Origin: Candidatus Nanopelagicales bacterium
GTDB taxonomy: Bacteria; Actinomycetota; Actinomycetes; S36-B12
Assembly (NCBI GenBank): GCA_023264215.1
Contig: JALQSY010000003.1
Span: 1-22,492 of the forward strand
Direction: 5' to 3'
Length of the DNA stretch: 22,492 nt
Of this stretch, positions 6,624-14,852 are shown in pieces. A program made the translations under genes and the position numbers. Under the pieces are notes generated by a model. It saw only the letters and a program-made list of their open reading frames with translations, was not told where the DNA came from and made no database searches. The first letter of the stretch is position 1; each line of letters starts with the position of its first letter.

Positions 6624-7229
6624 TCAGCGCATCACGACGCCGAGGCCGGGCTGCGATCCCACTGCCGCAAGGGTCACGGCCGTCCGCCGGTCCGCTGCGA
6701 CGACGATGAGACTACCGGCGCGGCGGGCGCCGGAGCCCAGTCCCGTGGAGGTCATCGGACGGGGCACGGTGACGACCTGCACGCCCTCGGCCAGGACCCG
6801 GTCGGCCTGGGCCCCTTCGATGATCACGAGGTCGATCAGGCTGCCGGGCGCGAGCAGATCGGCGGCGTCGGGGTCGGCGAGCCTCACCGGCACCAGGTGC
6901 ATGCCGTCGGTGCGGGCGCCGGTCGCGACGAGCCGGGTGGGCGTGACCGCCTCGCCGACGACCATGCCCGTGGCGGTGGTGCGGCCGACGACGGCATCGC
7001 GATCCTGCAGGGCACCCGGAGCGGCGTAGTCGATCGGGACGCTGCGCAACTCGAGGTCGTCGGCGGTCAGCCTGGCGCCCGCCGGGAGGTCGACGGCTGC
7101 CACGACGATGTCCACCTGCGCGGGGTGTCCCGGGCGGGCGGCGGCGAAGGCCAGGAGCGCGGCAAGTGCGGCGCACCCTGCGGCGATCGGGCGGCGGAAG
7201 CGATGGACGAACAGGCGTACGGCGGTCAT
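6624..7229 (-). CDS. SAF-domain protein, CpaB/RcpC-like
   Basis: A 201-residue protein with a basic N terminus, one membrane-spanning or signal-anchor segment at about residues 14-32, and an extracytoplasmic SAF domain around residues 40-105. The SAF signature is visible as VVAAVDLPAGARLTADDLEL followed by VVGRTTATGMVVGEAVTPTRL. CpaB/RcpC proteins of this kind belong to Flp/Tad pilus assembly, but no pilus gene lies in this window and stand-alone SAF proteins are common in actinobacteria. The ATG at 7229 is supported by TAACGT ending 6 nt upstream, so this gene probably has its own leaderless promoter between it and the FmdB/Ruc gene. mscL follows after 40 bp. Family assignment is good; function is unknown. 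Confidence 0.82.
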   Translation of the reverse strand: MTAVRLFVHRFRRPIAAGCAALAALLAFAAARPGHPAQVDIVVAAVDLPAGARLTADDLELRSVPIDYAAPGALQDRDAVVGRTTATGMVVGEAVTPTRLVATGARTDGMHLVPVRLADPDAADLLAPGSLIDLVIIEGAQADRVLAEGVQVVTVPRPMTSTGLGSGARRAGSLIVVAADRRTAVTLAAVGSQPGLGVVMR

Positions 7230-7235
7230 GCCGTG

Positions 7236-7241
7236 ACGTTA
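7236..7241 (-). promoter_or_regulatory. Minus-10-like box TAACGT of the SAF-domain gene
   Basis: TAACGT on the minus strand ends 6 nt before the ATG at 7229, the same geometry as at other starts in this window. It implies a leaderless transcript separate from the CIRCE-controlled gene upstream. Prediction only. Confidence 0.5.
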
Positions 7242-7269
7242 GGCGGCGGCGGCCCCAGAGCGCGCTGGG

Positions 7270-7278
7270 TTGTCCACA
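7270..7278 (+). promoter_or_regulatory. DnaA-box-like nonamer TTGTCCACA
   Basis: TTGTCCACA matches the DnaA box used by high-G+C actinobacteria such as Streptomyces. It lies alone in the 55 bp between the FmdB/Ruc and SAF-domain genes, upstream of the SAF promoter. A 13-of-14 inverted copy of its surroundings lies at 7707-7720. One box is not an origin. It could be a regulatory or titration site, or chance. Confidence 0.3.
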
Positions 7279-7284
7279 GGGGCG

Positions 7285-7638
7285 TCAGGCCGACGATGTC
7301 GTCGAGGACGCCGTGCCGCTCGATGACGGTGACGTCGATGACGGTGACGTCGATGACGATGACTTCGAGTCCGACTTCGAGCCCGACTTCGAGTCCGACT
7401 TCGCGGAGTCGGTCTTCGCGGAGTCGGTCTTCGCGGAGTCGGCCGTGGAGGAGTCCGAGCCGGAGCGGGAGTCCGTGCGATAGAAGCCCGAGCCCTTGAA
7501 GACCACGCCGACATTGCCGAAGAGCTTGCGGAGTCGGCCGGAGCATTCCGGGCACTGCGTCAGCGCATCGTCGCTGAAGGACTGCACGGCCTCGAAATCG
7601 TGGCCGCAATCGGTGCAGGCGTACTGATAGGTGGGCAC
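7285..7638 (-). CDS. ruc: FmdB-family zinc-ribbon protein, Ruc-like redox-regulated chaperone
   Basis: A 117-residue protein with an N-terminal zinc ribbon, CxxC at Cys8/Cys11 and CxxC at Cys29/Cys32, then the conserved RLRKLFGNVGVVFKGSGFYRTDSR. From about residue 59 the protein is a disordered Ser/Lys/Asp/Thr tail with short repeats (TDSAK, SDSK, SSTSP). This architecture matches M. tuberculosis Rv0991c (Ruc), a chaperone activated by oxidation of its zinc-binding cysteines and coregulated with Hsp60 and Hsp70 genes. GTG at 7638 is fixed by the strong Shine-Dalgarno GGAGG 4 nt upstream. A perfect CIRCE overlaps the predicted minus-10 box, so HrcA repression and heat induction are expected. 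It lies upstream of the SAF-domain gene and mscL on the same strand. The family call is firm; the chaperone role is transferred by similarity. Confidence 0.88.
   Translation of the reverse strand: MPTYQYACTDCGHDFEAVQSFSDDALTQCPECSGRLRKLFGNVGVVFKGSGFYRTDSRSGSDSSTADSAKTDSAKTDSAKSDSKSGSKSDSKSSSSTSPSSTSPSSSGTASSTTSSA
7322..7447 (-). repeat. Short in-frame tandem repeats encoding the disordered tail of the FmdB/Ruc protein
   Basis: Three repeat types follow one another. A 15-bp unit (GATGACGGTGACGTC on the plus strand) occurs three times at 7322-7366, the last copy varied. A 12-bp unit (GAGTCCGACTTC) occurs three times at 7367-7402. A 15-bp unit (GCGGAGTCGGTCTTC) occurs twice exactly at 7403-7432 and starts again at 7433. 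All keep the reading frame and encode the low-complexity tail, so copy number can vary without frameshift. Confidence 0.85.
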
Positions 7639-7657
7639 GGGACCTCCTCGGCCGCCC

Positions 7658-7663
7658 AGGTTA
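7658..7663 (-). promoter_or_regulatory. Minus-10-like box TAACCT of the FmdB/Ruc gene
   Basis: TAACCT on the minus strand would place the transcript start about 13 nt before the GTG at 7638, leaving a short leader that carries the GGAGG ribosome site. Its upstream three bases are also the first three bases of the CIRCE element, so bound HrcA would block polymerase. Confidence 0.5.
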
Positions 7664-7687
7664 GCACTCGAAGCTATGGAGTGCTAA
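7661..7687. promoter_or_regulatory. CIRCE operator (HrcA-binding inverted repeat)
   Basis: TTAGCACTC at 7661-7669 and GAGTGCTAA at 7679-7687 form a perfect 9-bp inverted repeat with a 9-bp spacer, the canonical CIRCE consensus. HrcA binds it and represses chaperone genes, classically groESL and dnaK, until heat shock. Here it overlaps the predicted promoter of the FmdB/Ruc gene on the minus strand. The divergent ABC-exporter promoter is about 60 bp away, so control of that side is less likely. No hrcA or groEL gene is in the window. Confidence 0.95.
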
Positions 7688-7744
7688 GTCGAATCGGGGG
7701 AGCGGGCCTGGGGACAACCCACGGGGCCGGTTGCCGCGCGCGAG

Positions 7745-7750
7745 TAGTGT
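7745..7750 (+). promoter_or_regulatory. Minus-10-like box TAGTGT of the ABC exporter operon
   Basis: TAGTGT ends 7 nt before the GTG at 7758, predicting a leaderless transcript and supporting that start over a TTG at 7731. No minus-35 motif is seen. Confidence 0.5.
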
Positions 7751-7757
7751 CCCTGGG

Positions 7758-8678
7758 GTGGCCATCCTCGTCGAGCACCTCGGGAAGTCCTTCGGCAGCG
7801 TGCGTGCCGTCGACGACCTGTCCTTCACCGTCCCCGACGGCGTCGTCACCGGATTCCTCGGGCCCAACGGCGCGGGCAAGTCCACGACGATGCGCCTGAT
7901 GCTGGGGCTGGATCGCGGGGAGGGCACGACCCTCTTCGACGGCATGCCGCTGCGCGATCACGCGCACCCCAGCCGCGTGGTCGGCACGCACCTGGACGCG
8001 CGACCCTTCCTGCCCGGGCGCACGGCGCGGGACCACCTGCGCATGCTGGCGACCGAGGCGAAGCTGCCCGCATCGCGCATCGATGAGGTGCTGGCGATGG
8101 TGGGCCTGACCGAGGTCGCCGACGACCGCCCGAAGTCGTTCTCGCTCGGCATGGCCCAGCGACTCGGACTGGCCGGGGCCGTGCTCGCCGACCCCCACGC
8201 GCTCATGCTCGATGAGCCGGCGAATGGCCTGGATCCGCAGTCCATCCAGTGGCTGCGCGAGTTCCTGCGCCACTACGCCGCCGAGGGGAGATCGGTCCTG
8301 GTGTCGAGTCATCTGCTCAGCGAGATGCAGCTCATGGCCGATCATGTCGTCGTCATCGCTCGTGGCAGGCTCGTGGCTGACGGCACGATCGACGAGCTCG
8401 TCTCCCAGCGCAGCGATGTCTTCGTCAGATGCACCGACTCCGCGCGCCTGGCCGCACTGCTCCGAGCGGCTGGCGGCACGGTCACGACCGAAGGCCAGGC
8501 CCTGGCGGTCACCGGTCTGACGACCGATCAGGTGGGGCACCTGGCCTTCGACGCCGAGGTGACCATCCTCGAGCTCACCACGCGCAAGGCGAGCCTGGAG
8601 GAGACCTTCATGCAGCTGACCGGTGACGGCCAGCAGTACGCCTTCGGCAGCGTGGACGTCGCGCAGGAGGCGTCATGA
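7758..8678 (+). CDS. ABC transporter ATP-binding protein (ABC-2 exporter type)
   Basis: A 306-residue ATPase subunit of an ABC-2 type exporter. Walker A is GPNGAGKST (residues 35-43). The signature region reads SLGMAQRL, and Walker B with D-loop is LMLDEPANGLDP; the switch His lies in VSSHLLSEM. The C-terminal ~80 residues form the accessory domain usual for the DrrA/CcmA/YhaQ-like group. GTG at 7758 starts the protein at the usual distance from Walker A (LVEHLGKSFG) and sits 7 nt after a minus-10 box. The stop overlaps the start of the permease gene by 4 bp (ATGA), so the two form one complex. The transported substrate is unknown; drugs, peptides and lipids are the usual possibilities. Confidence 0.94.
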   Translation: MAILVEHLGKSFGSVRAVDDLSFTVPDGVVTGFLGPNGAGKSTTMRLMLGLDRGEGTTLFDGMPLRDHAHPSRVVGTHLDARPFLPGRTARDHLRMLATEAKLPASRIDEVLAMVGLTEVADDRPKSFSLGMAQRLGLAGAVLADPHALMLDEPANGLDPQSIQWLREFLRHYAAEGRSVLVSSHLLSEMQLMADHVVVIARGRLVADGTIDELVSQRSDVFVRCTDSARLAALLRAAGGTVTTEGQALAVTGLTTDQVGHLAFDAEVTILELTTRKASLEETFMQLTGDGQQYAFGSVDVAQEAS

Positions 8679-9427: not shown

Positions 9428-9835
9428 TTGGGACGCTCCCGCGACCTGATCGCTGTCGCCGCCGGCGGCGCCGTCGGCGCTCTCGCCCGCTACGGCGTCT
9501 CGCTCACCGCGTCGGCTCTGGGCGTCGCTTCTCCCTGGGCCACCCTCGCGGTCAACGTGGTCGGCTGCCTCCTCATGGGCCTGCTCGCGGCCGCCGTGCT
9601 GGCACGCCCGGCCCGGGCTCGCGACGCGCTCTGGCGCTCATTCCTCGGCGTGGGGGTGCTCGGGGGATTCACCACCTTCTCGGCTTTCGCCGGCGATGCC
9701 GTCGTCCTTGCCGAGCGCGGCGATGCGGTCGCCAGCGCGGTCTACGTCGCCGGCACCCTCGCGGCGGGGCTGGTGGCGCTGCGCCTGGGCCTGTCGATCG
9801 GCGGTCATCATCGGTCGCGGCGGAGTCCGGCGTGA
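9428..9835 (+). CDS. crcB: CrcB/Fluc fluoride ion channel subunit 1
   Basis: Fluc/CrcB proteins are small four-helix membrane proteins that form dual-topology dimeric channels exporting fluoride and protecting enolase and pyrophosphatase. This 135-residue subunit shows the N-terminal GGAVGALARYG motif, an Asn-containing second helix (LAVNVVGCLLMG), and GVLGGFTTFSAFAGD, which carries the phenylalanine and Thr/Ser residues lining the fluoride path. A TTG at 9428 is taken as the start because it lies 3 bp after the permease stop and leaves a normal N terminus. The second crcB overlaps its end by 4 bp. With two paralogous genes, the working channel is probably a heterodimer of oppositely inserted subunits. 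Confidence 0.93.
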   Translation: MGRSRDLIAVAAGGAVGALARYGVSLTASALGVASPWATLAVNVVGCLLMGLLAAAVLARPARARDALWRSFLGVGVLGGFTTFSAFAGDAVVLAERGDAVASAVYVAGTLAAGLVALRLGLSIGGHHRSRRSPA

Positions 9836-10182
9836 CGGCCGCGATCCTCGTCGCCCTGGGCGGTGCCCTGGGTGCGAGCGCCCGTTACGCGCTCGCATCG
9901 TGGTGGACCGCGCGATTCCCCTGGGCGATCCTCGTCGCCAACGCGGCGGGCTCCTTCGTCCTGGGGGTCCTGCTCCATGAGGCACCCCGTGAGTCCATGC
10001 TCCTCATCGGCGTCGGATTCTGCGGCGCCCTCACGACGTTCTCGACGTTCGCGCTCGACACCGTCGTCCTCGCGCGCGAGGGGCGACCGAAGGCGGCGGT
10101 CGCCAACGTCATCGCATCGACCGCGGGCAGCATCCTCGCCCTCGCGCTCGGCCTCGCGCTTGCGCGCGCGCTGTTCGGCTAG
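9832..10182 (+). CDS. crcB: CrcB/Fluc fluoride ion channel subunit 2
   Basis: A 116-residue second subunit of the fluoride channel, at the usual family length. The same marks are visible: GGALGASARYAL near the N terminus, LVANAAGSFVLG in helix two, and GFCGALTTFSTFALDTVVL in helix three. GTG at 9832 overlaps the first crcB stop (GTGA), so translation is coupled, as expected for partners needed in equal amounts. Charge distribution differs between the two proteins, which fits opposite membrane orientation of a heterodimer; that is inference. The gene ends in a 4 bp overlap with the convergent cyclo-ligase gene. No fluoride riboswitch can fit upstream, since the genes are contiguous with the exporter genes. 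Confidence 0.93.
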   Translation: MTAAILVALGGALGASARYALASWWTARFPWAILVANAAGSFVLGVLLHEAPRESMLLIGVGFCGALTTFSTFALDTVVLAREGRPKAAVANVIASTAGSILALALGLALARALFG

Positions 10183-14679: not shown

Positions 14680-14753
14680 GGGGCTGTAGCGCAGTCCGGT
14701 AGCGCACCTCGTTCGCATCGAGGGGGTCAGGGGTTCAAATCCCCTCAGCTCCA
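14680..14753 (+). tRNA. tRNA-Ala (anticodon CGC)
   Basis: The 74 nt fold into a complete cloverleaf. The acceptor stem is GGGGCTG/CAGCTCC, with the G3-U70 wobble pair that is the alanine identity signal. The D stem is GCGC/GCGC, and the anticodon stem CCTCG/CGAGG encloses loop TTCGCAT, giving anticodon CGC for GCG codons. The variable loop is 5 nt, and the T stem AGGGG/CCCCT carries loop TTCAAAT. The discriminator base is A. The genome continues CCG, so the terminal CCA is not fully encoded and must be completed by CCA-adding enzyme. It lies alone between glpR and a secreted-protein gene. Confidence 0.97.
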
Positions 14754-14852
14754 CCGCACGATCTCGCGCGCACCCGGCGTCGATCCTGGGAATTTCCGCA
14801 GCCGCGCGCCGACTCCCGGACGAGCCACCGGGCATCACGGTCGCACGCCGCC

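Follow-up and report, generated by a model that had tools for sequence, protein, structure and literature searches.

An exact CIRCE element before the chaperone gene ruc may double as its promoter in an actinobacterial family

In a 22,492-nt stretch of DNA from a Candidatus Nanopelagicales bacterium (contig JALQSY010000003.1, positions 1 to 22,492; the window), a 27-bp palindrome that matches the CIRCE element without a mismatch lies in front of ruc, a gene for a small zinc-ribbon chaperone. By comparison with relatives and with M. tuberculosis, the palindrome is very probably the HrcA operator of ruc: transcription would be derepressed in heat, the protein would be activated by oxidation, and in one of two promoter arrangements (type B, to which the window belongs) the operator arms would double as the -35 and -10 elements. 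HrcA control of ruc is already known from M. tuberculosis and is not new here; the ruc of the window is, on sequence grounds, a new member of a known HrcA regulon with a well-conserved operator. The part that seems new is the promoter anatomy of ruc: in the family to which the window is related by synteny, CIRCE may double as the ruc promoter.

The precedent comes from M. tuberculosis, where HrcA is described as directly repressing ruc (Rv0991c); the level of Ruc protein goes up strongly at 45 C, and an hrcA mutant contains abundant Ruc at 37 C (PMC7448276). The HrcA-controlled set of that organism is given as groEL2, groES-groEL1, rv0991c-rv0990c, and hrcA-dnaJ2 (PMC8557902), and the window resembles its Rv0991c-Rv0990c operon in having an HrcA site upstream of an FmdB zinc-ribbon chaperone gene (PMC7448276; PMC8557902). 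The same study reports that Ruc gains chaperone activity on oxidation and that this activity requires its disordered tail (PMC7448276). The protein is in this way like the Hsp33-type redox-activated holdases, which hold zinc on four cysteines and are activated by oxidation (PMC7448276); unlike them, Ruc is a small zinc ribbon with a disordered tail. The first-pass annotation of the window had proposed two switches for the gene, transcription by heat and activity by cysteine oxidation. The idea appears right but is already published, because the M. tuberculosis work shows both HrcA control and oxidative activation (PMC7448276); for the window, repression and redox activation are carried over from that work. 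A search of a limited set of papers returned none that pairs FmdB with CIRCE or Rv0991c with CIRCE.

There are two differences from the M. tuberculosis arrangement. First, ruc is there also induced by SigH, and the SigH and HrcA sites are described as overlapping (PMC7448276); in contrast, neither the window nor any of 13 close relatives has a SigH-like motif (GGAAY-N16-19-GTT) in the 150 nt upstream of ruc, and SigH co-control of the window's ruc was rejected for lack of the motif. Second, unlike in the M. tuberculosis operon, the SAF gene downstream of ruc has a predicted leaderless promoter of its own.

The element at 7661-7687 reads TTAGCACTC-GAAGCTATG-GAGTGCTAA, with 0 mismatches over 18 of 18 arm bases. 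It is the sole match in the window at up to three mismatches, and a chance palindrome was rejected, as 100 dinucleotide shuffles of the window gave 0 CIRCE matches. The exact element of the first-pass annotation is thus borne out, and so is its zinc-ribbon gene similar to Rv0991c (Ruc). The product scores 77.5 bits against TIGR02605 (cut-off 31.3) and 64.8 bits against PF09723 (cut-off 34.4), and carries cysteines at 8, 11, 29, and 32 and a Ser-rich tail. Like M. tuberculosis Ruc, it has its cysteines at the positions mutated in the published study, where the family is described by four N-terminal cysteines arranged as CxxC-N17-CxxC and a hydrophilic tail (PMC7448276); in the window protein this motif lies within the roughly 50 N-terminal residues and a hydrophilic tail follows. 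A structure search with the protein sequence matched no solved structure at E 0.01. The segment coding for the tail (7285-7464) is of low complexity, Ser/Asp/Lys-rich, with short repeats (SAKTD units). On the minus strand, 22 nt separate the end of CIRCE from the ruc start codon, GTG at 7638-7636, which puts the element in the promoter or leader region of ruc, and comparison with relatives points to overlap with the promoter. The features are collected in Table 1.

Table 1. Coordinates of ruc, its neighbours, and the observed and predicted control elements in the window
Feature	Position	Strand	Basis or remark
CIRCE operator, TTAGCACTC-N9-GAGTGCTAA, exact	7661..7687	minus	sequence match; kept before orthologues
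Putative -35, TTAGCA	7682..7687	minus	inside left CIRCE arm; type B register, 18 nt before -10
Putative -10, TAACCT	7658..7663	minus	right CIRCE arm plus 3 nt; type B comparison
Predicted transcription start, about 13-nt leader	7650..7651	minus	from three type B relatives with 6-nt spacing
Shine-Dalgarno, GAGGAGG	7643..7649	minus	read from sequence
ruc, FmdB-family zinc-ribbon protein, 117 aa	7285..7638	minus	profile matches
SAF/CpaB-like gene, downstream of ruc	6624..7229	minus	own predicted leaderless promoter TAACGT 7241-7236
ABC transporter ATPase, divergent	7758..8678	plus	own predicted leaderless promoter TAGTGT 7745-7750

A scan for ruc covered 84,980 species, each represented by a single genome, and the best 80 loci (L001-L080) were searched up to 300 nt upstream of the gene for a CIRCE with no more than four mismatches in its 18 arm bases. 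Comparing the upstream regions of orthologues, as the first-pass annotation had suggested, finds the element conserved: it precedes ruc in 69 of these best 80 loci, and 1600 shuffled upstream regions gave 0 matches at four or fewer mismatches (all had at least five). A SigH-like motif stands upstream of ruc in 16 of the same best 80. One of these loci, L002 (genome G002, a metagenome-assembled genome), is the only one syntenic with the window (the shared gene order runs from secA as far as the GNAT gene that follows moaC), and "family" here means the family of G002. A ruc match was found in 76 of its 85 genomes. The family upstream set comprises 73 relatives and the window; G253, G284 (partial), and L209 (too short) were left out, and the second ruc copy of G219 (L233) was read but not counted. 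A CIRCE precedes ruc in 63 of the 73 relatives at up to four mismatches, in 61 at up to two, and perfectly in 32 (64, 62, and 33 with the window included). In an order-level sample, the best 30 of 92 matching genomes, CIRCE was present in 19 of 30. Judged from these upstream regions, HrcA-ruc wiring is common among the related actinobacteria examined.

The repressor gene was matched in 78 of the 85 family genomes, over cut-off in 75. The other seven, with no hrcA match and with genome completeness not given, would fit a relic, that is, a palindrome inherited with no HrcA acting on it in this organism. Such a history can hardly be credited: the window has kept all 18 arm bases, whereas relatives differ freely from one another in the spacer, and hrcA is present in the two genomes closest to the window by the divergent ABC protein among 13 relatives compared (L168/G247 at 91.2% and L170/G245 at 90.6%). 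Both belong to a set of ten chosen family genomes, all with hrcA over cut-off and at least two CIRCE each; nine of the ten have CIRCE at ruc, G250 being the one without. Examined gene by gene in three family genomes (G002, G210, and G212), the regulon has the following composition. G002 carries six CIRCE at up to three mismatches: groES-groEL1 and groEL2 are each preceded by a pair, hrcA by one at a distance of 27 nt, and ruc by one that is perfect. G212 has the same six, and G210 has five, with none at hrcA at up to three mismatches; the full set (groES-groEL1, groEL2, hrcA, and ruc) is found in two genomes, G002 and G212. The M. tuberculosis precedent, the conserved CIRCE, and the regulon in these three genomes together argue for the earlier placement of ruc in the HrcA regulon.

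Absence of CIRCE at ruc shows no clear link to absence of hrcA. The repressor gene was searched in 36 genomes among the best 80 (a match in 35, over cut-off in 34), which include all 11 without CIRCE at ruc, and nine of the 11 have hrcA over cut-off. Within the family, 10 of 73 relatives are without a good CIRCE at ruc, and seven of these ten (G250, G274, G273, G275, G168, G208, and G139) have hrcA over cut-off. In one of them, locus L175 of G250, the CIRCE at ruc has decayed to 8 mismatches and TAATCT is retained; hrcA is still present in this genome, as are CIRCEs before groEL2 and near hrcA.

CIRCE lies in the 119-bp intergenic region shared by ruc and the ABC gene, and all 13 close relatives compared have an ABC homologue on the other side, divergent from ruc; both findings would suit an operator that controls the ABC gene (7758 onward), alone or with ruc. 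This is nevertheless very unlikely on account of distance, strand reading, and conserved position before ruc. CIRCE is 70 nt from the ABC start, and the gene has its own TAGTGT 7 nt before its GTG; the right arm on the plus strand reads TAAGTC, not TAANNT; CIRCE lies 8-50 nt before ruc in 64 of 64 CIRCE-bearing family rows; and L175, which lost CIRCE, kept the box on the ABC side and a TAGGGT. Because the ABC and SAF genes on either side each seem to have a leaderless promoter of their own, the target of HrcA is probably ruc, whether or not transcription reads through into SAF. A terminator search of 7150-7850 found none.

Control of ruc by HrcA leaves the question of where the promoter lies, and here the 64 CIRCE-bearing family upstream regions (window included) divide into two registers: 39 are type A, 24 type B, one is both, and none is neither. 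In type A, CA(C/G)A(A/C) stands immediately before the first T of CIRCE, i.e., the -10 adjoins the left arm, and the best -35 match is 17-18 nt before this motif. In type B, the window included, there is no type A motif and the right arm reads TA(A/G)NNT, which together with TTAGCA in the left arm (4 of 6 bases of TTGACA) gives an 18-nt spacer. Fisher's test of the exclusivity of the two registers gave 1e-16, a value uncorrected for relatedness and obtained with motifs defined after viewing the same sequences. Better evidence for type B is the conserved T at the sixth place: all 24 type B loci, the window among them, have it, whereas the preceding two bases occur in seven combinations and T makes up 13% of leader bases. 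The position that mirrors it is G in 17 of the 24, C in 5, T in 2, and A in 0; the mirror place is never A, and therefore the conserved T is not part of a longer palindrome, an explanation that was rejected. In three type B relatives exactly 6 nt lie between TAANNT and GTG. This is the spacing of leaderless starts in actinobacterial promoters, and in these three it fits a leaderless start; there is no room for a usual Shine-Dalgarno sequence because GTG follows only 6 nt past TAANNT.

For the window itself, the -10 box proposed in the first-pass annotation, TAACCT, keeps its location (7663-7658, minus strand) and its overlap with CIRCE and gains the type B comparison, but it is a poor match to consensus and finds no echo in a sigma-70 consensus scan of 7150-7850, which gave 0 promoters (shuffles, mean 0.0); because of this, the assignment rests on comparison with relatives. 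A true HrcA operator could also lie in a transcribed leader, as in type A, with the promoter upstream around TTGTCC (7717-7712, minus strand). Most CIRCE-bearing loci of the family are type A, and the sequence that runs from CIRCE through to the start codon forms the expected stem (-19.7 kcal/mol, z -1.5), which hardly stands out from shuffled sequence: 20 of 200 shuffles were equally good. An upstream promoter is still unlikely, given that neither the window nor any of the 23 other type B loci has the type A motif in front of CIRCE, that all 24 have TA(A/G)NNT, and that the three relatives with GTG 6 nt past TAANNT fit a leaderless start at that point.

If the operator is the promoter, the following course could be expected. 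At normal temperature, we infer, HrcA would be bound on both CIRCE arms. In type B the left arm would supply TTAGCA as the -35 and the right arm TAA, completed by NNT, as the -10, and bound HrcA would hide the whole promoter because the arms themselves are the -35 and -10. In heat stress HrcA would be lost or inactivated and RNA polymerase would use the same bases, with transcription predicted to start 7 nt downstream of the -10, about 10 nt beyond the operator, to give a short-leader ruc mRNA. Ruc would then remain inactive, its four cysteines holding zinc, until oxidation turned it into a holdase.

The other members of the family regulon (groES-groEL1, groEL2, and hrcA) share with ruc the 9-9-9 palindrome, presumably the same repressor, and a predicted promoter that overlaps the operator; they differ from type B ruc in how the two overlap. 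At groES, TTGAC(C/G) lies in the spacer of the distal CIRCE (9 of 10 pairs). At groEL2 the arrangement resembles type B but is looser: of 10 cases, 3 have the T at the sixth place and 7 have it one position further on. At hrcA, read in two genomes, TAGNNT ends on the first T of CIRCE (left arm). One operator seems to be overlaid on promoters in several registers, because the predicted promoters of groES, groEL2, hrcA, and ruc sit differently on CIRCE. Type B as a general rule was rejected: outside the family there are 13 loci with a right arm that starts with TA, and none of them follows the NNT rule (eight of these 13 carry a SigH-like motif upstream), and groEL2 has T at the sixth place in only the 3 of 10 cases above.

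Switching between registers is a new but modest point. A quick-method HrcA tree of 58 genomes implies four A/B switches, or three without three long-branch rows; it excludes the window and the CIRCE-bearing genomes G256, G231, G278, G241, G271, and G233, which are without a usable hrcA. It is rather probable that the ruc operator became a promoter, its arms serving as -35 and -10 and made one-directional by the single conserved T three bases past the right arm, that the promoter moved to or from the upstream register at least three times with the repressor site kept, and that ruc mRNA is leaderless in three genomes.

The M. tuberculosis-type wiring of HrcA and ruc is indicated as widespread among Actinobacteria, and Ruc would therefore count alongside GroEL as part of the HrcA core set in these bacteria. 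The family also offers natural variants, some with the operator kept and the promoter moved, and one (G250) with the -10 kept and the operator lost, which make the evolution of a repressor site and a promoter on shared bases testable.

Some further observations concern the surroundings of ruc. Words of the DnaA-box-like form TTNTCC(A/C)CA occur only twice in the window, at 7270-7278 and 7709-7717, flanking ruc. Each lies 36-37 nt before a TANNNT that is itself 6-7 nt before the start codon of a neighbour (the SAF/CpaB-like gene and the ABC ATPase gene, respectively). On the SAF side, the pair of word and TANNNT is present in 41 of 55 loci, spaced by 35, 36, and 37 nt in 1, 32, and 8 of them; the first RTG follows 6-7 nt further on in 29 of the 41, and a same-length reversed control gave 0. 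On the ABC side there are 13 cases of the pair at 34-37 nt. The word might be where an activator or DnaA binds at leaderless promoters. Among the best 80 loci (L001-L080), 45 of 78 actinobacterial ones carry a DnaA-box-like word in the 150 nt that follow the ruc stop; the density there is 5.9 per kb, and in the rest of the loci 0.10 per kb. In 23 of those 45, two such words form a pair 17-20 nt apart. Elsewhere in the window, two adjoining CrcB-like genes (fluoride exporter family) occupy 9428-10179, the first scoring just below the NCBIfam cut-offs, and a tRNA-Ala (CGC) gene lies at 14680-14755.
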